Positions 12,910 through 39,178 of a stretch of DNA of 48,390 bases are shown here, one piece after another. The notes beneath the pieces are model-generated. The model made no database searches. It was not told the origin of the DNA and was given only the letters and a program-made list of their open reading frames with translations. Each line of letters starts with the position of its first letter. Positions within the stretch are counted from its first letter, which is position 1. This DNA is from a virus. The translations under genes and the position numbers were made by a program. The stretch lies in IMG/VR virus record IMGVR_UViG_3300025141_015750, positions 1 through 48,390 of that record; one strand, written 5' to 3'.

Positions 12910-13467
12910 GTGAAAATTACTTTAAGTCAATTACGATCTCTAGTATTGGAGTCTCTTAGTGTAGAAGATCTTGAAGATGTAAGACAGACTGCACATCTTG
13001 TTCACATGGGACAGAAACGAAGAGACGATACGCCTTATATTTCTCACCCTGAGGAAGTTTACAATATTACAAGAGCATTTTATCCAGAAGATACGTCTGC
13101 ACAAATGCTAGCACTTTTACATGATACGATCGAAGATACTGAAGAAGTTGGGAATGTTTCAAGAGAAGAGGCGTATGAAATGATCCAGGCATCTATTCAT
13201 GATGAAAAACAATTAGCAGCAATTATCAACGCACTTCAGTTATTGACACATGATAAATCAATTCCTTATGACGATTATCTTCAGGCAGCTCTTTATAATA
13301 GAATAGCTGGAAGGGTGAAGATATCTGATTTAATTCATAATTTATCTCACAGCCCTAGCCAGAGCCAGATTAGAAAATACAGGAATGCACTGGAAGACGT
13401 AAGAATTCCAAAACACATTAATAGATCACAGCTTTCTACTTTGACGAAAATATTAAAAAATAGCTAG
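12910..13467 (+). CDS. MESH1/SpoT-type HD hydrolase with N-terminal tag
   Basis: The 185-aa protein matches single-domain (p)ppGpp hydrolases: His32 in HLVHMGQKRRDDTPYISHP, the pair His71-Asp72 in LALLHDTIEDTEE and Asp140 in VKISDLIHNL. MESH1 has the same three metal-binding blocks in the same order and about the same length (179 aa). It could hydrolyse (p)ppGpp, or NADPH as reported for metazoan MESH1. The first 15 residues (MKITLSQLRSLVLES) are an added tag with an L-x-E motif, seen on other proteins here, so it may be packaged. Start is GTG 12910. Confidence 0.82.
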   Translation: MKITLSQLRSLVLESLSVEDLEDVRQTAHLVHMGQKRRDDTPYISHPEEVYNITRAFYPEDTSAQMLALLHDTIEDTEEVGNVSREEAYEMIQASIHDEKQLAAIINALQLLTHDKSIPYDDYLQAALYNRIAGRVKISDLIHNLSHSPSQSQIRKYRNALEDVRIPKHINRSQLSTLTKILKNS

Positions 13468-17331: not shown

Positions 17332-17577
17332 ATGTCTGATATAGAAAATATTGAAATGTGCCTGGATGACGAGGTCATTGGCCAGCTTGCAAAGCTTCTT
17401 CAGCTTGCTATTTTGACTGGAACCGATATTATTGATAACCTAAGAATGCTTAGGGTAACTTTTAATGATGAAACGGGAACTCTTGTTCTTACAGATGAAT
17501 ATAGAGCGACATCAGAGAGCAATATTGAAAAGCTAATGAAGGTCGCTGTTGGGCCCGAGGAGCTCGGAGACAATTAA
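17332..17577 (+). CDS. Small acidic protein of unknown function
   Basis: This 81-aa protein is not recognised. It is acidic and predicted mostly helical, with a hydrophobic patch (VIGQLAKLLQLAILTGTDIID) too polar at its ends to be a clear membrane segment, and a short beta hairpin-like part (VTFNDETGTLVLTDEY). TAGGAGATGAC gives a good ribosome site before ATG 17332. It is the first gene of a unit leading into the two dUTPase-like genes and shares its end region with their ribosome site. Confidence 0.6.
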   Translation: MSDIENIEMCLDDEVIGQLAKLLQLAILTGTDIIDNLRMLRVTFNDETGTLVLTDEYRATSESNIEKLMKVAVGPEELGDN

Positions 17578-17578
17578 A

Positions 17579-17953
17579 ATGCAAGATAGACTTTCTGAAA
17601 TATTTGAGAGAAGAGAGCTATTTATGAACAATCTTAGAAAAAGCATGCCTGAGAGTTCACCGCAGTGGCCTGTTGATTTATCTATCAAGAAGAATCAGCA
17701 GCATGTTAGAGATATGGCACTCAGAGGAGTAGAGGAAATGTTCGAAGCAATTCAGCATCTTAAAAACTGGAAACCTCACAGACAGACAGAGGTAAGAGGT
17801 TTTGATCGGGATGAATTCCTAGAGGAGATAGTTGACGCGTTTAACTATTTTTTATCTATACTTGTTTTGACTGGATTTTCTGCAGATGAACTAATGGATG
17901 CATATCGAAAGAAGGATAACATCATCAATAAAAGGCTGGAGACAGGATATTGA
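17579..17953 (+). CDS. All-alpha dimeric dUTPase/dCTPase-like pyrophosphohydrolase
   Basis: The 124-aa product carries the MazG/dimeric dUTPase metal motifs: GVEEMFEAIQHLKNW (Glu52/53 and Glu56) and LEEIVDAFNYFLS (Glu83 and Asp86), then ELMDAYRKKDNIINKRLETGY, the typical K-x-x-x-N-x-x-R ending. Enzymes of this group hydrolyse dUTP, dCTP or both; T4 gp56 is such an enzyme and keeps cytosine out of phage DNA. ATG 17579 is preferred over the TTG at 17549 because GGAG lies about nine bases upstream. It overlaps the next gene by TTGA. Confidence 0.85.
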   Translation: MQDRLSEIFERRELFMNNLRKSMPESSPQWPVDLSIKKNQQHVRDMALRGVEEMFEAIQHLKNWKPHRQTEVRGFDRDEFLEEIVDAFNYFLSILVLTGFSADELMDAYRKKDNIINKRLETGY

Positions 17954-18879
17954 AAATACTTGAGCTTTTTTACGATCAGAAAGTTTTTTCTGATTTAATC
18001 GGCACTCCAGATAGCATGACTGATTACGAAAGAGACGAAATGACTAAGGATCTTTCTCTAGCGTTGCACACAGAGGTGAGTAACTTGGTATCAGCTACTA
18101 GCTATAGGCCACACACGAATGAAAAAGTTGATCCAGATCCAGATAAAATACTTTTTGAATCTGTAGATGTTATTAGATACGCAATTGCAATAATGAATCT
18201 CTGGGGAGTTAAACCTGGTGAATTTGAAAGCGCATGGAAGTTAAAAGATGAATATCTTACATCGTTTAGAAATATTGAGAAAAATAAATGGGAAGGTCAA
18301 AAAGTTGCTATAGTTGATATGGATGATGTTTTGTGTGAATTTAGGCTTTGTTTTGCAAATTGGCTTAATAAGACTTATAATATTAATGCAGACGTTAATT
18401 CAAAAGAGTATTACTTTATAGAAGATTTAAAAAATGCAGGTATTAATCCAGAAGGGGTATTTGATAAGTTTATAAGTGAAGGTGGCTTTGGAAATCTTTC
18501 TCCGGTAGACGGAGCTTGTAAGTTTATGAAGAAGCTAAGGAGTGATGGTTATTTTATTCATATTTTAACTGCTAGGCCAAAAAGCAACTTAAGGTGTCTA
18601 TACGATACACACGCCTGGCTTAAAAGACATGATATTGTTTTTGATAGATTGGATTTTGCATCTGAAAAGCTGAGATGGTGCATGCAATCACAGTACTGGA
18701 TGCTGGGTTCAATTCAGTTTGCAGTTGATGATTCTCCCAAGCATGTTGCTGAATATGCAAAGCATGGTGTAAAAGTTTATATGCCCCCTAAGTCTTACAA
18801 TCATGAAGCGCAGCAGCTAAAAAATGTTGATACATACACAAAACTTAATGAAATTTGTCTAGTTCACAATTCAGGCTGA
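17950..18879 (+). CDS. Fusion of a degenerate dUTPase/MazG-like domain with a HAD phosphatase
   Basis: Residues about 30-105 look like a second all-alpha NTP pyrophosphohydrolase: LHTEVSNL has Glu42 but Asn at the second acidic position, and ESVDVIRYAIAIMN has Glu70 and Asp73, ending EFESAWKLKDEYL. Residues about 118-300 are a HAD domain with the nucleophile motif DMDDV (Asp123, Asp125), ILTARP (motif II Thr) and AVDDSPKHV (motif IV), like 5'(3')-deoxyribonucleotidases. Together they suggest dNTP to dNMP to nucleoside salvage or host-nucleotide breakdown. Start is TTG 17950 inside a TTGA overlap with the active-looking dUTPase. Confidence 0.78.
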   Translation: MKILELFYDQKVFSDLIGTPDSMTDYERDEMTKDLSLALHTEVSNLVSATSYRPHTNEKVDPDPDKILFESVDVIRYAIAIMNLWGVKPGEFESAWKLKDEYLTSFRNIEKNKWEGQKVAIVDMDDVLCEFRLCFANWLNKTYNINADVNSKEYYFIEDLKNAGINPEGVFDKFISEGGFGNLSPVDGACKFMKKLRSDGYFIHILTARPKSNLRCLYDTHAWLKRHDIVFDRLDFASEKLRWCMQSQYWMLGSIQFAVDDSPKHVAEYAKHGVKVYMPPKSYNHEAQQLKNVDTYTKLNEICLVHNSG

Positions 18880-21575: not shown

Positions 21576-22562
21576 ATGCCACAGAATAAGAGGCTAGAAC
21601 CCGTTTCATTTCCCATGAATCTGAGGTTTGATGAAAAACCTACAACCAATTTTAAGAATGATCTAGATTCAATTAATATTGAGTTAATGGATCATCCAGA
21701 TCCAATCAGGGCAAGAAGGATGGTTTACCAGTTTATCAACGCAACGTGGGAAGATGAGCCCGGGATGCACAGTCCGGACAATGTTCAGGACTGGAAGCTT
21801 TTTCAGGCACTCGAGGCTGCATTACAATTCAAGGCATTACCAACTGTCATGGAAACACTTGATTTCACATTTAGAATTGAGGGAATTGATGTTCAGACTG
21901 TAACACATTTAATTAGACATCGGACCGGATCTTTTTCTGCACAGTGCACAGGTGACAGGTGGCAAACTCATGCCAACGCTCTTGTTCCAGGACCGATTCA
22001 AAACAGTCCAGAGCTTTATGAAAGATGGAAAAAGGTAGTCAATGATGCAAAAGAGCTCTATTGTGACATGATTGATACGCGTAAGATTTCCATAATGGAT
22101 GCTAGGACTGTTCTTCCAAAGTGTCTCGAAACTCATTATTACGCTAGGTTTAATCTAAAAGACCTTTTAAACTTTATCAGGCAGAGAATGGACAAGCAAA
22201 TCCAGCCAACTACTGATAATATTATTGCATACCAGATGTATCTTGCAGTTGCCAGGATTTTTCCAGAAGTTACAACTGTAATCAATATGCACTCACCTTC
22301 GCGACACTATGTTGCAACAGCTAGGACTGGAAAGGCAACAAATCTTTACTGGCCAGATTCAGATTCAGATAAGTTTGACTGGCACCCGGAAGACTTTATC
22401 TATGCTGGATACAGAGACCAGATAAACGGAACAGATCCGGAGCTTGGTCACAGAAGTAATTTTAAGTTCGATAAGCTTGCACATGAGTATGATCAGAGAA
22501 TTTCTGAGATTGTTGAAAGTTACAATGGCTGGAAAGAAGAAGTTGGTTTCGAATCTCCCTAG
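21576..22562 (+). CDS. thyX: Flavin-dependent thymidylate synthase
   Basis: The 328-aa protein has the ThyX motif RHRTGSFSAQCTGDR and the downstream block DARTVLPKCLETHYYARFN with the conserved R-x-x-L-P and N residues, then LLNFIRQRMDKQIQ. It methylates dUMP using FAD, NADPH and methylene-THF. It is longer than bacterial ThyX (about 220-250 aa), as in some phages, with extra residues at both ends. I use ATG 21576 with AGGAGG upstream rather than the earlier in-frame ATG 21486, which lies in the terminator stem. A ThyA-fold domain at 34898 is therefore unlikely to be needed for dTMP. Confidence 0.9.
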   Translation: MPQNKRLEPVSFPMNLRFDEKPTTNFKNDLDSINIELMDHPDPIRARRMVYQFINATWEDEPGMHSPDNVQDWKLFQALEAALQFKALPTVMETLDFTFRIEGIDVQTVTHLIRHRTGSFSAQCTGDRWQTHANALVPGPIQNSPELYERWKKVVNDAKELYCDMIDTRKISIMDARTVLPKCLETHYYARFNLKDLLNFIRQRMDKQIQPTTDNIIAYQMYLAVARIFPEVTTVINMHSPSRHYVATARTGKATNLYWPDSDSDKFDWHPEDFIYAGYRDQINGTDPELGHRSNFKFDKLAHEYDQRISEIVESYNGWKEEVGFESP

Positions 22563-26386: not shown

Positions 26387-29300
26387 ATGTCATCTATTAT
26401 CATGCCAAAAAGATTTGTTGGCTTGCACGCCCACTGTGGAACAGGAAGCCCGTATGACGGTCTTGGGTACCCTAACCAGCATATTGATTTCGTGCTTTCA
26501 AATGAAATGAATGCATGGGCCCTGACTGACCACGGAAACGGAAACGGTCTTGCTCATGCGCATGCATATGCAAAGAAGTTAAAGAAACAAGGTAGAGAGT
26601 ATCGTCAAATTTACGGTGTTGAGTTTTACTTTGTACCTTCACTTTCTGAGTGGCGTGTATTGTATGAGGCTCATCGCGAAGAGGTCAGGGTTGCAAGGTC
26701 TGAAAAGAAAGCAAGCGAATCGACAGATATAAATTCTGAAGATGAGATTTCTGGTGGGCTTGTTATTGAGGACGAGGACGAGACTAAAAATGATTTCGAG
26801 AAAAATGACTGGAAGCGACGATATCATCTTCTTGTAGTGGCGAAGAATCAAAAAGGGTTGCAGAATCTTTTTACGCTTGTCAAGAAGTCATACACAGATG
26901 GATTTTATAGATTTCCAAGGATTGATTACAACCTTCTAAAAATGCACGGTGAGGGCCTTGTTGTAAGCACTGCTTGTATCGGGGGGTATCCCGCCTCATT
27001 GATTGCAAGAGGGGAGGCACTTGGCAGGACAGATCAAGAGATAATGCTAGACCTCGAAAATATGTCTGATAGGTTTATTGACAGTGTAGGAAGAGAAAAC
27101 TTTAATCTTGAGATTCAATTTAACTCTCTGACAATGCAGCACAAGACTAATGAACACCTAATTTCACTGCATGAAAAAACAGGAATTCCGCTTATTGCAA
27201 CAGCTGATAGTCACTATTATAGCCCCAATATGTGGGAGGCTCGTGAATTATACCGCAAGCTCGGTAGAATGGGTGCAAGAGGTGATGCAATGCCTTCACT
27301 TCCATCATTTGAAGATTTGAAATGTGAGCTTTATCCGAAGAATGCTAGCCAGATGTGGGAAGAATATAAGGCACATGTTCCAAATTATGAGTTTTACATT
27401 GGAAAGGACCAGCTAATTTGTGATGCAATTGAGCGATCATATGATATCGCCTGGAATCAGTGCGAAGAAGTGTGGTTCGACGAAGAGGCAAAGCTTCCCA
27501 CGTTTGATGTACCTGGAAACTCTGCGTTTAACCAGCTAGCTAAACGAGTAAAAGAAGCACTTGTTAAAGAAGATTTGCATACAGATCAAGTATATGTTGA
27601 AAGAGCGAAGATGGAGCTTGATGATATCAAGCATCTTGGATTTGAGAACTACTTTCTGACTATGACAAAAGTTTTTGATCTTGCATCGCAGAGAACAATT
27701 ATTGGTCCGGGCCGAGGCTCAGGTGCCGGATCTCTTGTAAACTACCTTCTCGGTATTACAACAACAGATCCTATAAAGTATGGTCTACTGTGGGAGAGAT
27801 TTTTGCATAGGTCAAAAGCTGGATGGCCAGATATCGATACAGATGCTGGTGATAGAGATGTTCTGATAAATGCGTCTAGAGAGCTGTTTGGAGAAGAGTC
27901 TGTTGTACCAGTCTCTAATTTTAATACTCTTAAACTTAAGTCTCTAATCAAGGACGTTTCAAAGTTTTACGGTATTGACTTCGGAGAAGTTAATGTATTG
28001 ACTAATACGCTTGAAAAAGATGTTATGCATAAGGCTATGGGTGATCACGAAGAAAGGTCGACATACGTTCTTACTCATGAAGATTGTATGAAGTATTCAC
28101 AAAAGTACGTGGAATTTATGGATCTGTATCCAAAAGTCAATGAGCATGTCCAGAATCTATTTATGGAATCTAGATCTATTGGTAGACATGCCGGTGGTGT
28201 GCTAATATGCCCAGATCTTGAAAAATATATGCCAGTTATCAAAGTAAGAGGTGAGCTACAAACACCTTGGTCTGAGGGAATGAACTTCAGACACCTTGAG
28301 CCAAATGGATTTCTTAAGTTTGACTTCCTGGGTTTAACAACATTAAAGATGGTTGAAGACTGTACACGACTAGTTTTAAGAAAGCAGGGCAATGAATCTC
28401 CTTCTTTTGCAGATATCCAAAAGTTCTTTGATGAAAATATGAATTGCAGATATAACATGCTAGATGATCAGAAAGTTTGGGAGCATGTCTATCACAAGGG
28501 CAGGTTTGTGCAGATCTTCCAGTTTACGCAGCAGGGTGCAAGAAACTTCTGCATGTCTGCGAAACCCAGGACAATCGAAGAGCTTGCAACTATAACGGCA
28601 ATCTACAGACCCGGCCCTCTATCAGCAGGTGTACACAGGAAATATGTAAAGGCAAAGAAGTCTGTTGAAGATGGAAACCCAATTAAATATGATCACCCAG
28701 TTATTGAAGAAATACTAAGCGAGACATACGGCTTTATCTCATTCCAGGAGCAGTTCATGCTTTTGGCACAAAGGCTAGCTAATTTTGACAAGGGGGCGTC
28801 TGACAAGATGAGAAAGACTCTTGTTAAGAAGTCACTTGACTCAAATGATGCAAAGGTCCAGGAGCGAATAGATCTAAGAAAGAAGTTTGTCAATGGTGCA
28901 GTTGAAGTATCTGGAATGGACAGGGCAAGGGCAGAGAAGCTATATGAGACAATTGAATTCTTCTCCGGGTATGGCTTCAATAAGTCACATGCAGTGTCTT
29001 ACGCTATAGATTCCTATTACTCTGCGTGGCTCCACACGTACTATGAGAAGGAGTGGCTCGCAACATGCCTGCAAACACAAAATGGTACGAACAAGTTTGG
29101 AAAGGTAATATCTGAGATTAAGTCGCTGGGCTATACAATACTTCCTCCTGATATTAATGCATCTTCTGACGTGTGGGTCTATAGCACCGAAAGAGAAGGC
29201 TTCGTTCCTCCCCTCACAGCAATCAAAGGAGTCGGTGATGCAGCAGTTACAGAGATCATGGAGCGTAGACCTTTTACAAGTCTTGATGAGATGATGTTTG

Positions 29301-29944
29301 CTGACGATGGGCGGTGGCGTCCATCAAAGATGAACAAGACATGCTTTAACTCTCTGTGTCAAGTAGAGGCATTTGGGAGTCTTGATGAATTTAAGTCTGG
29401 GAAAATTCTAAATCACAGACAGCTTCACAGTGTAATTATTGACAATTACGATCTTCTCAAGAAGGGCCGCCACGGAATGACTAAGACAGCTGTTAAAAAG
29501 CTACTTAAGGAACAAGACTATATTCCCGATCTCATTGATATTAAACTTAATGAGGTTGACGGTATGCCAGACTGGAATAGAGCAGAGAAGATAGGAAGCT
29601 GTGTTGAGTTAATGGCCAGCGCAGATGAGACTCTTGTCTTTCCGCCTAGAATTATGGCAAAGATAGAAAAGGCAGACGTAAGACCGGTTACATCACTCTC
29701 GGGAAAGGAAAAGGATATTGTGTGGTTCTGCATTCAAACAATGGAGGAGCGGACAACAAAGAACAACAAGAAGTTCTACCGCATGAAGGTCATGGATAAT
29801 AACTCTGAGAGCTGCTGGCTCCGTGTCTGGGGTAGGTTTGATGATCCCCCTGACCTATATACCATGTGGCTGGCTGAAGTAGCTTCTACTGAGTCCTGGG
29901 GTTGTTCTACATCGTCATATAAGATGAAGAAGCTAGACGTGTAG
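26387..29944 (+). CDS. dnaE: DNA polymerase III alpha subunit (family C replicase)
   Basis: The 1185-aa protein has the full DnaE order: an N-terminal PHP domain (FVGLHAHCGTGSPYDG, LTDHGNGNG, YGVEFYFVP), the palm block GPGRGSGAGSLVNYLLG followed by WPDIDTDAG with the two catalytic Asp, RHAGGVLI, FDFLGLTTL, ITAIYRPGPLSAG, SFQEQFMLLAQ, SGYGFNKSHAVSYA, helix-hairpin-helix-like INASSDV/AIKGVGDAAV and a C-terminal OB region. It is probably the main phage replicase. The beta-clamp-binding motif is not obvious. A second, family A polymerase is encoded at 236. It follows DnaK by 49 bases. GAGG lies seven to ten bases before the ATG. Confidence 0.95.
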   Translation: MSSIIMPKRFVGLHAHCGTGSPYDGLGYPNQHIDFVLSNEMNAWALTDHGNGNGLAHAHAYAKKLKKQGREYRQIYGVEFYFVPSLSEWRVLYEAHREEVRVARSEKKASESTDINSEDEISGGLVIEDEDETKNDFEKNDWKRRYHLLVVAKNQKGLQNLFTLVKKSYTDGFYRFPRIDYNLLKMHGEGLVVSTACIGGYPASLIARGEALGRTDQEIMLDLENMSDRFIDSVGRENFNLEIQFNSLTMQHKTNEHLISLHEKTGIPLIATADSHYYSPNMWEARELYRKLGRMGARGDAMPSLPSFEDLKCELYPKNASQMWEEYKAHVPNYEFYIGKDQLICDAIERSYDIAWNQCEEVWFDEEAKLPTFDVPGNSAFNQLAKRVKEALVKEDLHTDQVYVERAKMELDDIKHLGFENYFLTMTKVFDLASQRTIIGPGRGSGAGSLVNYLLGITTTDPIKYGLLWERFLHRSKAGWPDIDTDAGDRDVLINASRELFGEESVVPVSNFNTLKLKSLIKDVSKFYGIDFGEVNVLTNTLEKDVMHKAMGDHEERSTYVLTHEDCMKYSQKYVEFMDLYPKVNEHVQNLFMESRSIGRHAGGVLICPDLEKYMPVIKVRGELQTPWSEGMNFRHLEPNGFLKFDFLGLTTLKMVEDCTRLVLRKQGNESPSFADIQKFFDENMNCRYNMLDDQKVWEHVYHKGRFVQIFQFTQQGARNFCMSAKPRTIEELATITAIYRPGPLSAGVHRKYVKAKKSVEDGNPIKYDHPVIEEILSETYGFISFQEQFMLLAQRLANFDKGASDKMRKTLVKKSLDSNDAKVQERIDLRKKFVNGAVEVSGMDRARAEKLYETIEFFSGYGFNKSHAVSYAIDSYYSAWLHTYYEKEWLATCLQTQNGTNKFGKVISEIKSLGYTILPPDINASSDVWVYSTEREGFVPPLTAIKGVGDAAVTEIMERRPFTSLDEMMFADDGRWRPSKMNKTCFNSLCQVEAFGSLDEFKSGKILNHRQLHSVIIDNYDLLKKGRHGMTKTAVKKLLKEQDYIPDLIDIKLNEVDGMPDWNRAEKIGSCVELMASADETLVFPPRIMAKIEKADVRPVTSLSGKEKDIVWFCIQTMEERTTKNNKKFYRMKVMDNNSESCWLRVWGRFDDPPDLYTMWLAEVASTESWGCSTSSYKMKKLDV

Positions 29945-34897: not shown

Positions 34898-35803
34898 ATG
34901 CTAATGTTTCCTACTAAGTGCTTATTTGTTGAAGGTCCTGATTGCTCTGGAAAAACAACTTTAATTAAAAATATTCATAATTTTACTGGATATAAGTGGC
35001 ATATACACGATAGGTCACAGATTTCAAGAAAAATATTTCATGAAATGTACAATAGGAATTTACAGTATGCGGATGATGATTTCCACAGTGAAATTTCAAA
35101 CCTTAACAATAGATTTATTTTTCTTCTCCCGCCATTTGAAACAATTGAGGAAAGATTTAATAAGCGGGGAGATGATATTCATAAAAGCATAGGTGATATA
35201 AAAAGCGTGTATGACAAATTTCAAGATGGGTTTGTCAATGTAGCGGGAATGCCAAATGTTATGTCTTGTTTTTCAGTTGCAACACCAAAAGCAGTTGAAG
35301 CTTTGTCTATGACAATTTCACTTGTTGAAAAAGCTATGATTAGAGAAGTCTCTAGTCAGGTTTTAAGGACTGTAGAGTTCTATGGTGATGAGTGTTTTCC
35401 TCTAGAGTTTACACTTTATGACGATGGAAAGTTTGAAGAAGCATCTAAAGATTCTATGCTTTATGAGTTTGAAAAAGAATACTATGAAAAAATATATGAA
35501 AAACTACACAGTAAAATTTCTAATGAAATTTCTGGAAAAAATGAATACAAGAGGCCTGAAACACTTCTATCCAGGAGATTTGTGTATGCAGACGATAGTT
35601 GTATATCATTTATTCAAGTCTCTATACGTAATGGTGTGATGGACTTTCATACTGTAATAAGATCTACTGATGTTAAAAATATTTTTCCACATGATCTTGA
35701 ATTTCTATACTATCTATCTTCAACTTGTTTCGAGAGATTTAAAGATGATTGCACATCAGTGAGGTTAAGATTTAACTTAAACTCTGCACACATAATTAGA
35801 TAG
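34898..35803 (+). CDS. dNMP kinase-like domain fused to a ThyA-fold (dCMP hydroxymethylase-like) domain
   Basis: The 301-aa protein has a P-loop kinase start, LFVEGPDCSGKTTLIKN, like thymidylate kinases. The C-terminal part resembles the catalytic half of thymidylate synthase: Cys235 in SCISFIQVS aligns with the catalytic Cys, and Arg255-Ser256 in IRSTDVKNIFPHD is 20 residues later, exactly as C146 to R166 in E. coli ThyA. Eleven residues after the Arg, where ThyA has the dUMP-reading Asn177, this protein has Asp266. An Asp there marks T4 dCMP hydroxymethylase. The ThyA N-terminal half is reduced or absent, so activity is uncertain. Sugar-nucleotide genes follow. Confidence 0.65.
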   Translation: MLMFPTKCLFVEGPDCSGKTTLIKNIHNFTGYKWHIHDRSQISRKIFHEMYNRNLQYADDDFHSEISNLNNRFIFLLPPFETIEERFNKRGDDIHKSIGDIKSVYDKFQDGFVNVAGMPNVMSCFSVATPKAVEALSMTISLVEKAMIREVSSQVLRTVEFYGDECFPLEFTLYDDGKFEEASKDSMLYEFEKEYYEKIYEKLHSKISNEISGKNEYKRPETLLSRRFVYADDSCISFIQVSIRNGVMDFHTVIRSTDVKNIFPHDLEFLYYLSSTCFERFKDDCTSVRLRFNLNSAHIIR

Positions 35804-35844: not shown

Positions 35845-36855
35845 ATGAGAGCTTTAGTTACAGGCGGTTGTGGATTTATAGGGTCAAATCTCGCCAGACA
35901 ACTCGTTAAAGATGGCTGGATTGTCGACGTAGTTGACAATCTATCCGGAGGAACACTAGATTCTATATCTGATCTTAATGTTAGGCATCTTCCAGGAGGA
36001 TCATTTCTGCCACAGTTTTATGTCAGTTTATCAGAGATGGGTCAAAAAAGAGATGCAGAAGAAATTCTTTTTATTCCGTCTGATTTATCAGACACAGGAG
36101 TTCTCTCAAGCATAAAAAATAAAAATTATGATATAGTTTTTCATCAAGCAGCTGTGCCACGTGTTAGCTTCTCAGTTGAAAATCCGTCAGAGACAACTTT
36201 TGAAAATATCACAAAGACTGTTGCATTACTAGAGGCATGCACAGGAAATGTCAAAAGAGTTGTGTGGGCTTCGTCGTCTTCAGTCTACGGAGGTGCAAAT
36301 GTACTTCCAACACATGAAGCTGAGAGAGGGAAAAATCTACCAAAATCACCGTATGCCTGGCAAAAGTTTGCAATAGAAGACTATGCTAAATTATGTGCAG
36401 ATTTATACGATCTTGATATCGTGTGTCTAAGATATTTCAATGTCTTCGGTCCGGGCCAGCTAGGTGAATCACCTTACTCAACGGCCGTATCTGCGTGGTG
36501 TCATGGTACTAAGAATGGTACAAAGCTTAGAAGTGACGGTGACGGAGAGCAAACTAGAGATCTATGCTATGTAGACAATGTAGTGCAAGCAAATATTCTT
36601 GCTGCACATTCCGATATGAAGTTTGGTGGCAGGTGCTATAATGTTGCATGCGGTGATAGAATATCTAACAATGAGATTCTAGATTATTTTATTAAAAACT
36701 ATGATGTAGATATTAAACATGCACCTGAGAGACCTGGAGATGTAAAGCATACACAAGCTGATATTTCAAGAATTGTTAAAGAGCTGGGTTATTCTCCAGA
36801 CATAAGATTCTGGGAAGGATTTGAAAAAACTTTAGAGTGGTGGGGATTGAGATGA
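35845..36855 (+). CDS. NAD-dependent sugar-nucleotide epimerase/dehydratase
   Basis: The 336-aa protein is an extended short-chain dehydrogenase: Rossmann motif VTGGCGFIGSNLAR at the N-terminus, a central HQAAVPRVSFSVENP, SSSSVYGG and the catalytic YAWQK (Tyr-x3-Lys) in SPYAWQKFAIEDY, then RYFNVFGPGQ and RDLCYVDNVVQAN. This pattern fits UDP-glucose or UDP-GlcNAc 4-epimerases. It may supply a sugar for DNA, capsid or host surface modification. An AATACTTTA element and TTGGAG ribosome site precede ATG. It overlaps the cupin gene by ATGA. Confidence 0.88.
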   Translation: MRALVTGGCGFIGSNLARQLVKDGWIVDVVDNLSGGTLDSISDLNVRHLPGGSFLPQFYVSLSEMGQKRDAEEILFIPSDLSDTGVLSSIKNKNYDIVFHQAAVPRVSFSVENPSETTFENITKTVALLEACTGNVKRVVWASSSSVYGGANVLPTHEAERGKNLPKSPYAWQKFAIEDYAKLCADLYDLDIVCLRYFNVFGPGQLGESPYSTAVSAWCHGTKNGTKLRSDGDGEQTRDLCYVDNVVQANILAAHSDMKFGGRCYNVACGDRISNNEILDYFIKNYDVDIKHAPERPGDVKHTQADISRIVKELGYSPDIRFWEGFEKTLEWWGLR

Positions 36856-37274
36856 ACAGCAATAGGGATGTACCAGACAATACAAAATCTGCATGGGTAT
36901 CTAGAGCACGCCAAGAAACGCAGAAGCCGTGGGGCTATGAGATAGCATGGGCAGGCTTTGGAGGAATTCATGGAAAAACTCTTTTTATTAGAGAGGGTGA
37001 GAGAACAAGCTTGAAATATAATTTAAGAAAAACTGAGGTGCTGATGCTCAGATCTGGAAGCGCAGAGGTTTGCTTTGGCGACGAAATAATAATGATCAAG
37101 TCAAAATTTCAAGATATGAAAGTTGAAATACTCGAGCAAGGTGATACACTTCTAGTCCAGTCTGGCTGTCCGTATAGAATCACTGCTCTTTCTGATTGTG
37201 AAATTTTTGAAATAGGTGATAACTCAAGTGACAATGGTGTCATGATTGATGATGATTACGGGAGGGTAAAATGA
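36852..37274 (+). CDS. Cupin protein (mannose-6-phosphate isomerase type II-like)
   Basis: The 140-aa product has a KPWGYEIAWAG start of the beta-barrel as in the isomerase domain of sugar-nucleotide enzymes, IREGERTSLKYNLRKTEVLMLRSGSAEV (cupin motif 1, although the usual metal His pair is replaced by Lys/Asn) and LEQGDTLLVQSGCPYRITALSDCEIFEIG (motif 2). Lack of clear metal ligands leaves the activity uncertain. ATG 36852 is within the ATGA overlap with the epimerase, so the earlier in-frame start is not needed. A role in sugar metabolism is inferred from its partner. Confidence 0.72.
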   Translation: MNSNRDVPDNTKSAWVSRARQETQKPWGYEIAWAGFGGIHGKTLFIREGERTSLKYNLRKTEVLMLRSGSAEVCFGDEIIMIKSKFQDMKVEILEQGDTLLVQSGCPYRITALSDCEIFEIGDNSSDNGVMIDDDYGRVK

Positions 37275-37840
37275 AAAGAATGCCCGAATTTATTATATTT
37301 ACTGGTCCAATGTTTGGTGCCAAGACTAGCAGGCTTTTATCTGTCATAGATAGATTTTCCTATCAGAGTAGATGTGTTGTTTGTTTTAAGCCTAGAATTG
37401 ATAGAAGATACTCAAAGTCAAATATTACTACACACAATGGTAATTCTGTTGAAGCAATTACAGTGAACACTGGTGAAGAAATTGTTAATATTACTATGGA
37501 AAGAAAGGATTCAATCGATGTCGTTGCTGTTGATGAAGCTTTTATGATAGATGGGAGCGCAGATGCACTTATTAAATTATTCAGACATGGAAAGACCGTT
37601 GTTGTTTCATCACTCCAGCTCTCTGCATCTGGAAATGTTTTTAAAGAGATTAGAGATATGATGCCTTGGGCAACTAAAATTGAAGTATGCCCAGCAGTTT
37701 GCACAGTTAGTGGCAAAGATGCTTATTATACTCATAAAAAAATTGATGATCTTGCAGAAATCACTGTAGGCGGATCAGAGCTTTATGAGCCAAGATGTTG
37801 GGAGCATCACTCTTTTATGAATCAGCTAGCTAAGAATTGA
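37271..37840 (+). CDS. tdk: Thymidine kinase (TK1 type)
   Basis: The 189-aa protein has the P-loop FTGPMFGAKTSRLL, Walker B-like VVAVDEAFMI, and zinc-type cysteines in VCPAVCTVSG with a later EPRCWEHH, close to the type II thymidine kinase fold. The lasso loop region HKKIDDLAEITVGGSELYEPRC matches the family ending. It phosphorylates thymidine (and perhaps deoxyuridine analogues) from degraded host DNA. It overlaps the cupin gene by ATGA and belongs to the same nucleotide/sugar operon. Confidence 0.87.
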   Translation: MKRMPEFIIFTGPMFGAKTSRLLSVIDRFSYQSRCVVCFKPRIDRRYSKSNITTHNGNSVEAITVNTGEEIVNITMERKDSIDVVAVDEAFMIDGSADALIKLFRHGKTVVVSSLQLSASGNVFKEIRDMMPWATKIEVCPAVCTVSGKDAYYTHKKIDDLAEITVGGSELYEPRCWEHHSFMNQLAKN

Positions 37841-37847
37841 GAATATT

Positions 37848-38771
37848 ATGGTTGAACCTACTAGTGTAAATTGTGTCATATACCATGCAGATTGTACCGA
37901 TGGTTTCGGAGCAGCATACTCTGCCTGGAAGCAGCTCGGTAACAGGGCAGAATATCATGCATGCAAACACGGCACACCCCCGCCAGATGTGAAGGGAAAG
38001 AATGTTGTTATACTAGATTTTTCTTTTGGAAATGAGACTACTAAAAAAATGATAGAAGTAGCAAATGGTCTGCTCATAATAGATCACCACAAATCTGCAA
38101 TGGTGGAGCTCCACGACATATCAAATACAAAATTTGATATGAGCAAGTCAGGGGCTATTCTAGCATGGGAATTTTTTCATCCAGGAAAAGAACCACCAAA
38201 GTTTATAAAATATATTCAAGACAGGGACTTGTGGACATGGGAGCTCGAGTACTCTAAGGAATTCAGCGCAGCATTTGATATGGTACCGTTTGAATTTGAA
38301 GAATTTGAGAAGTTTGAAGATGACTCAGTTTTTGATGATGCATGCAAGAGGGGATCTTATATTCTTGCATATAGCAAAACAGTAGTTAAGAAAGTTTGCG
38401 AAAAAGCAACAGCTAGAAAAATGGATGGCAAGGATGTGATGGTTGTAAACGCTTCACACTGGATGTCTGAGATTGGATCCCGCTTAGCACCAGACTGTGA
38501 TTTCGCAATGATATGGTACTGGGATCATAAAAGTCAGGATACTAAAGTGAGCTTGCGAGGATTTCACGATATGGTTGACGTGTCTGAGATCGCAAAGCAA
38601 TTTGGCGGAGGCGGTCACAAAAAGGCAGCTGGGTTCCAGCTTCCTAAAAATAAGCACATAGAAAGTCTATTTGATAAACCAAAAATGCCTAGAAAAAGAA
38701 CATCTTCTAAAAATCCCGCAAAGGGAAAATCAAAGAGTGATCCCAAGCCATCAGAAGAAGTGAAAAAATGA
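37848..38771 (+). CDS. DHH/DHHA1 phosphoesterase
   Basis: The 307-aa protein has the DHH-family blocks: IYHADCTDGFGAAYSAW, VVILDFSFG, LLIIDHHKSA (the DHH motif), a central IQDRDLWTWEL, and the C-terminal DHHA1 motif FGGGGHKKAAGF. Members degrade short oligoribonucleotides, pAp or cyclic dinucleotides. A basic Lys/Pro/Ser tail (about residues 280-307) is unusual and could bind nucleic acid. Possible roles are nano-RNA recycling or removal of defence second messengers; sequence alone cannot decide. It overlaps the deaminase gene by four bases. Confidence 0.85.
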   Translation: MVEPTSVNCVIYHADCTDGFGAAYSAWKQLGNRAEYHACKHGTPPPDVKGKNVVILDFSFGNETTKKMIEVANGLLIIDHHKSAMVELHDISNTKFDMSKSGAILAWEFFHPGKEPPKFIKYIQDRDLWTWELEYSKEFSAAFDMVPFEFEEFEKFEDDSVFDDACKRGSYILAYSKTVVKKVCEKATARKMDGKDVMVVNASHWMSEIGSRLAPDCDFAMIWYWDHKSQDTKVSLRGFHDMVDVSEIAKQFGGGGHKKAAGFQLPKNKHIESLFDKPKMPRKRTSSKNPAKGKSKSDPKPSEEVKK

Positions 38772-39178
38772 GAGATAGCTGGAATAAAATTTGGCTGGAA
38801 TTCGCAAGCTCAATATCTAAAAGATCTTATGACCCACGCTACAAAGTAGGGGCAGTCATTGTTACAGAAGATAATACACAAGTTTTGGCTGTGGGTTACA
38901 ATGGCAACTATGCGGGTGGGCCAAATGAAGTAGAGTCAGAATCACCTGGCGAATCAGGAATGTTACACGCTGAGATTAATGCTCTTCTTAAAATGGACTA
39001 TAACAATCCCAAGAAGAAAAAACTTTATCTGACTCTTTCTCCTTGCAGAATGTGTGCAAAAGCAATTGTCAATGCTGGAATTGATGAAGTTTTTTACTCA
39101 GAAGTGTATCGAGATCAGTCTTCATTTGAGATTTTAAACTCTGCAAAAATAAAGCATAAGTTAATTGTCATAGAATAA
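38768..39178 (+). CDS. dCMP/cytidine deaminase
   Basis: The 136-aa protein has the zinc deaminase motifs LHAEINALL (HAE) and LSPCRMCAKAIVNAG (PCxxC), with KVGAVIVTEDN and GYNGNYAGGPNE typical of dCMP deaminases. It makes dUMP for ThyX. Its coexistence with dUTPase/dCTPase genes parallels T4, where the same enzymes clear dCTP. An in-frame late-like element overlaps its stop codon. The ATG overlaps the DHH gene stop. Confidence 0.88.
   Translation: MRDSWNKIWLEFASSISKRSYDPRYKVGAVIVTEDNTQVLAVGYNGNYAGGPNEVESESPGESGMLHAEINALLKMDYNNPKKKKLYLTLSPCRMCAKAIVNAGIDEVFYSEVYRDQSSFEILNSAKIKHKLIVIE

Follow-up and report, generated by a model that had tools for sequence, protein, structure and literature searches.

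A conserved gene fusion, in which a complete P-loop kinase is joined to a shrunken thymidylate synthase (TS)-fold domain of the dCMP type, was established in a viral DNA of 48,390 nucleotides (IMG/VR record IMGVR_UViG_3300025141_015750; the whole stretch is called the window here), and its likely function is the C5 modification of dCMP. The reading frame was confirmed to start with the ATG at position 34898, and its product has a two-part layout. The gene and its parts are as follows:

34898..35803, + strand: fusion gene, kinase plus TS-fold dCMP-type domain (301 aa; intact in 38 loci; AF2 model pLDDT 88)
34898..35329, + strand: kinase domain of the P-loop deoxynucleoside/deoxynucleotide kinase class (residues 1–144; matches phrog_761, YorR and deoxyadenosine kinase)
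34934..34957, + strand: P-loop GPDCSGKT (residues 13–20; G13, D15, G18 and K19 invariant, n = 36)
35009..35017, + strand: DRS motif (residues 38–40; D38 and R39 invariant, n = 36)
35153..35173, + strand: RFNKRGD lid-like motif (residues 86–92; R86, R90, G91 and D92 invariant, n = 36)
35330..35800, + strand: shrunken TS-fold domain (residues 145–301; domain model pLDDT 95; best Foldseek match AfhB 9iqu)
35570..35578, + strand: SRR, equivalent to ThyA S-R126-R127 (residues 225–227; RR in 35/36)
35600..35602, + strand: Cys235, equivalent to the ThyA C146 nucleophile (invariant, n = 36)
35660..35665, + strand: Arg255-Ser256, equivalent to ThyA R166-S167 (invariant, n = 36)
35693..35695, + strand: Asp266, at the ThyA N177 / gp42 D179 position (D in 36/36)
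35783..35791, + strand: Ser-Ala-His (residues 296–298), H298 at the H207 position (invariant, n = 36; SAH in 5/5 AfhB-like proteins)

IMG/VR scans revealed the whole fusion intact in 38 loci, window included, which encode 36 distinct proteins of 289–312 aa. Across all 36, the Cys, the Arg-Ser pair, the Asp at +31 from the Cys and the Ser-Ala-His motif were unchanged, and the Cys was kept even in homologues whose TS-like domains are only 27–33% identical to that of the window. Values of dN in the family ranged from 0.17 to 0.41 against a dS of at least 1.8 for both domains, with dS saturated. As the short domain recurs at the same length in 36 proteins, its origin by read-through or frameshift was ruled out. 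No cellular copy of the fusion was detected in a single scan across 84,980 genomes of bacteria and archaea, a search of a phage collection with the TS-like domain alone as query gave no convincing match, and no published account of a kinase/TS-like fusion was found in the literature searched.

An earlier note on this DNA, made from the letters alone, had proposed that the second half of the protein carries a ThyA fold with the nucleotide-site spacing of E. coli ThyA. Gap-free alignments reproduced this spacing, with Cys235, Arg255-Ser256 (+20/+21) and Asp266 (+31) matching C146/R166-S167/N177 of ThyA and likewise C148/R168-S169/D179 of T4 gp42. Along with the fold, the Cys, Arg-Ser, Arg-Arg and the His at the 207 position place the domain in the TS superfamily, and the Asp at the Asn177 position, present in 36/36 proteins, is that of a dCMP-type TS homologue. 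The selection of dCMP claimed in the note agrees with published work in which the Asn177-to-Asp change switched the preference of ThyA to dCMP (PMC8670742). In the same study, TS positions 177 and 147, occupied in the fusion by Asp and Ile, showed the strongest association with cytosine-modified contigs, which supports the suggested link to modified cytosine (PMC8670742).

Family models recognize this domain poorly. PF00303 (Thymidylat_synt) gave no match to it, nor any in 12 related records, and phrog_160 (thymidylate synthase) matched weakly (7/8 members, best E 0.001). A match to the polysaccharide deacetylase model PF15421 (E 0.001, below cut-off, 2/8 members) was rejected as chance because the domain model has a TS fold. 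Profile-profile comparisons with hhalign, for which 36 TS-like domain sequences were used, yielded P values of 7.6e-8 against AfhB-like proteins, 9.3e-8 against gp42, 8.8e-7 against a pelagiphage/SPO1-type set and 7.2e-4 against ThyA-type TS, the weakest match within the superfamily. These values and a profile match to PDB sequences, set against 0.016 for an unrelated control, rule out a chance motif. In that PDB-sequence search the T4 dCMP hydroxymethylase gp42 came first (E 2e-4; AfhB 0.7). The fold itself was predicted with confidence, at a pLDDT of 88 for the whole fusion and 95.1 for the TS-like domain alone, whose model gave 377 Foldseek matches to TS-fold structures at E<=1e-3. AfhB 9iqu came out on top with either model, at 1.3e-5 with the whole protein, where the best TS reached 1.2e-3, and at 9e-8 with the domain, where the best TS reached 3e-6. 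With VIA-align the domain scored Z 12.2 against the CMP hydroxymethylase MilA and 12.1 against AfhB, a tie, and about 11 against TS. A tree of the core (67 columns) grouped the fusion with the AfhB-like proteins (97/97); the branch leading to the fusion is very long.

The shortness of the domain relative to ThyA had been missed by the earlier note. The stretch from the E58 region to the SRR motif is shorter by about 55 residues, which carry the W80/Y94 segment in ThyA, and all that follows the H207 position there, the C-terminal tail included, is absent; the fusion proteins end 2–9 residues past the His, and exactly 3 past it in 30/36. Gly was found in none of the 36 proteins at +27 (the Gly173 position), nor Tyr in any at H+2 (the Tyr209 position), and the ThyA Asp169 position (+23) is relaxed (D 16, N 17, E 3; Asp in the window). 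The three homologues with Glu at this last position are L033, L036 and L037. A search by alignment against ThyA showed no clear equivalent of Glu58. E192 and Y195, which are conserved in the fusion, are at most tentative counterparts of ThyA Glu58 or AfhB E73. The wider set of AfhB-like proteins likewise varies at the Glu58 position (E or R). The folate-site set of the gp42 type (W80/Y94 segment, Asp169, Gly173, Tyr209 and tail) is absent or relaxed in the fusion.

This loss bears on the 5-hydroxymethyl-dCMP synthesis that the earlier note had suggested: its dCMP-type TS fold stands, whereas hydroxymethylation in particular is disfavoured by folate features that are absent or relaxed. A folate-dependent dCMP hydroxymethylase or methylase that would supply the kinase with 5-hydroxymethyl- or 5-methyl-dCMP is an unlikely reading, although several observations speak for it. 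T4 gp42, which shares with the domain the TS fold, Cys148, Arg168-Ser169 and Asp179, is the top PDB profile match and level with AfhB in hhalign; MilA has the highest VIA Z; the Asn-to-Asp change lets ThyA itself act on dCMP (PMC8670742); and in the pelagiphage HTVC119P and its relatives an Asp-type full-length TS homologue lies beside a kinase of the same PHROG. Against this, gp42 has E60, W82, Y96-G97, G175, Y218 and a C-terminal tail and is not fused to a kinase, whereas the fusion is devoid of the W82/Y96-G97 segment, G175, Y218 and the tail. Moreover, 14/14 full-length TS homologues compared (folate-type or uncharacterised, MilA among them) keep the Asp, Gly and Tyr that the fusions have relaxed or lost.

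The 5-hydroxylation of dCMP, in the manner of AfhB, is favoured over hydroxymethylation because of the missing folate features and the fold ranking, the sequence profiles being tied. The presence of 5-hydroxycytosine in phage DNA has been recognised only recently, in RB69-like phages. AfhB (PDB 9iqu/9iqc) is the dCMP hydroxylase of phages RB69/HY126, a 5-hydroxy-dCMP (5-hodCMP) synthase, its link to flavin being given by the titles of the PDB entries; its chains 9iqc/9iqu differ very little from RB69 ORF048c. No literature on AfhB or its flavin mechanism was found in that searched. In RB69-type phages, a TS-superfamily synthase has been described that produces 5-hydroxy-dCMP, followed by arabinosylation of 5-hydroxycytosine, in an account of the synthase from which flavin is absent (PMC13390438). 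AfhB resembles the fusion in its TS fold, Cys, Arg-Ser, Asp at +31 and SAH motif, and also in having no Gly at +27, no requirement for Asp at +23 and a short C-terminus. The combination of SAH and no Gly at +27 occurs in 36/36 fusions; at +23, 17 fusions have the Asn of the AfhB-like proteins (n = 5) and 16, that of the window among them, have Asp. In 4/5 of the AfhB-like proteins Phe replaces Tyr at H+2. The SAH motif, the missing Gly, the relaxed +23 position and the non-Tyr residue at H+2 set the fusion and AfhB apart from the folate enzymes. In contrast to the fusion, with its domain of about 160 aa covalently joined to a kinase, AfhB is a separate protein of about 238 aa and still has the N-terminal half (Tyr-Gly, Glu, Trp), which is missing from the fusion; the cofactor site of the AfhB type may therefore not be preserved.

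An improbable alternative is that the TS-like domain is no enzyme but a module binding dCMP, or modified dCMP, that steers or regulates the kinase. The loss of the folate region (about 55 residues), the lack of a clear Glu58 equivalent or identified cofactor site and the fact that the domain is permanently joined to an intact kinase at all loci are consistent with such a role. However, the catalytic Cys, which binding would not need, is kept in 36/36 proteins even at the lowest domain identities, and the Glu58 position varies in the AfhB-like set as well.

The kinase half is complete, with a P-loop (EGPDCSGKTT), DRS and RFxxRGD motifs and the residues E12, G13, D15, G18, K19, D38, R39, R86, R90, G91 and D92 fixed in 36 sequences. 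The P-loop, DR(S/Y), Arg-rich lid and fold identify it as a member of the P-loop deoxynucleoside/deoxynucleotide kinases. It matched phrog_761 (thymidylate kinase) at E 4e-12 and YorR of Bacillus phage SPbeta at E 2e-10, with structural Z values of 12.6 for YorR and 12.9 for deoxyadenosine kinase, and it missed the cut-off of PF02223 (thymidylate kinase) with E 0.069 and 13.3 bits vs 27. YorR and the deoxynucleoside kinases share its fold and motifs but have no TS-like domain.

Kinases near AfhB or hydroxymethylase genes matched that of the fusion (hhalign, P 2.4e-16). A phrog_761 kinase is encoded three genes from the AfhB gene in RB69, where sugar genes lie in the vicinity, and two genes from it in Konradin; in HTVC119P and ct3Et533 it lies directly beside the Asp-type full-length TS homologue. 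HTVC119P (gp15 and gp16) and the pyrimidine hydroxymethylases of AXL3 and ct3Et533 thus resemble the fusion in pairing an Asp-type TS homologue with a kinase, and AXL3 and ct3Et533 also encode a dCMP deaminase and a pyrophosphatase close by, but in all three the genes are separate and the TS is full-length with folate-type residues. This progression from separate neighbour to fused domain provides the chief support for a kinase that charges what the TS-like domain makes; the same neighbour pattern is also compatible with a kinase producing dCMP from deoxycytidine.

The following further genes were annotated in the window:

35845..36855, + strand: NAD-dependent nucleotide-sugar epimerase, the next gene (PF01370 E 8e-44; 24/38 loci)
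36837..37274, + strand: cupin-like protein (phrog_7851 'cysteine dioxygenase' E 5e-15; 19/38 loci)
37271..37840, + strand: thymidine kinase (PF00265 E 5e-34; 36/38 loci)
38768..39178, + strand: dCMP deaminase (phrog_174 E 1e-40; 35/38 loci)
17549..17953, + strand: dUTPase_2/MazG-like pyrophosphatase (matches phrog_12184 and also phrog_173, the PHROG of RB69 gp56 dCTPase)
21576..22562, + strand: divergent ThyX-like protein of about 330 aa (PF02511 E 8e-24)

The most constant neighbours were DNA polymerase III alpha (36/38 loci), thymidine kinase and dCMP deaminase, and a DHH protein was found near the fusion in 24/38 loci. A gene of the dCMP deaminase family, a phrog_12184 pyrophosphatase and ThyX were each present in 12/12 related records; on cytosine-modified contigs TS is accompanied by dCMP deaminase and a pyrophosphohydrolase, among other domains (PMC8670742). 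Ordinary thymidylate supply, by a dTMP kinase and a remnant TS acting on dUMP, would suit the constancy of thymidine kinase and dCMP deaminase and the 'thymidylate kinase' label of the kinase's PHROG, but is very improbable given an Asp instead of Asn in 36/36 at the residue that decides for dCMP against dUMP, ThyX in 12/12 records and ThyA-type TS as the weakest superfamily match. The presence of ThyX had led the earlier note to regard a dTMP role as redundant. ThyX is indeed there, but the argument is weakened because the form in the window is divergent and half of the related records (6/12) carry two ThyX, this long form and a second, canonical one of about 236 aa; the long form may hence have another job. 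This ThyX-like gene, in the window and in the related records G001–G012, carries an odd motif, RHRTGSFSAQCTGDRW.

Taking together the fold, residues, fusion, conservation and gene context that sequence and models show, we regard it as close to an even call that the protein is a bifunctional enzyme which both produces a C5-modified deoxycytidylate and charges it, with a flavin (hydro)peroxide as the more likely electrophile. For its substrate, chemistry, use of flavin, kinase substrate and the modified DNA, we infer the following scheme. The equivalents of R226/R227, R255 and S256 would hold the phosphate of dCMP, D266 would read the cytosine face and H298 would contact the sugar. Cys235 would then add to C6, activating C5 for attack on a flavin (hydro)peroxide to give 5-hydroxy-dCMP, as in AfhB, or, less likely, on methylene-tetrahydrofolate. 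The fused kinase would phosphorylate the product towards a dNTP for the DNA polymerase III of the phage, and in some members a subsequent glycosylation may draw on the nucleotide-sugar epimerase. With a presence in only 24/38 loci, the epimerase was discarded as an obligate partner. No clear DNA glycosyltransferase was detected in the 12 related records (GT2 in 0/12, GT4 in 1/12, that being G001), which leaves sugar attachment hypothetical. More tentatively, the domain may be a minimal TS-fold dCMP C5-hydroxylase of about 160 aa, free of the folate half, which together with its product-charging kinase would equip the phage DNA with 5-hydroxycytosine, either as such or as a glycosylated derivative.

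If this is true, predicted C5-oxidised cytosine extends to an uncultured lineage of large phages, dCMP chemistry requires only a small part of the TS scaffold, and a one-gene pair of modifier and kinase could yield modified dCTP precursors. The fusion also suggests a role for the unassigned 'thymidylate kinases' that other phages encode close to their AfhB and hydroxymethylase genes. The lineage is described as having no close cultured relative because its DnaE-type polymerase III alpha is at best about 30% identical to any match in cultured phages.

Further observations were made in the window. The polymerase, of 1185 aa, is encoded at 26387–29944 and lies upstream of the fusion in 36/38 loci. 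Directly after the gp56-like pyrophosphatase, an ORF at 17950–18879 combines a weak MazG-like N-terminus (phrog_173 E 4e-4) with a 5'-deoxynucleotidase (NT5C) domain. Finally, a shared N-terminal stretch, e.g. MKITESRIRRIIREEL, opens many otherwise unrelated ORFs (29976, 30984 and 34066, with similar ones at 12910, 14747, 18964, 20210 and, on the minus strand, 23874) and resembles a targeting or packaging tag.
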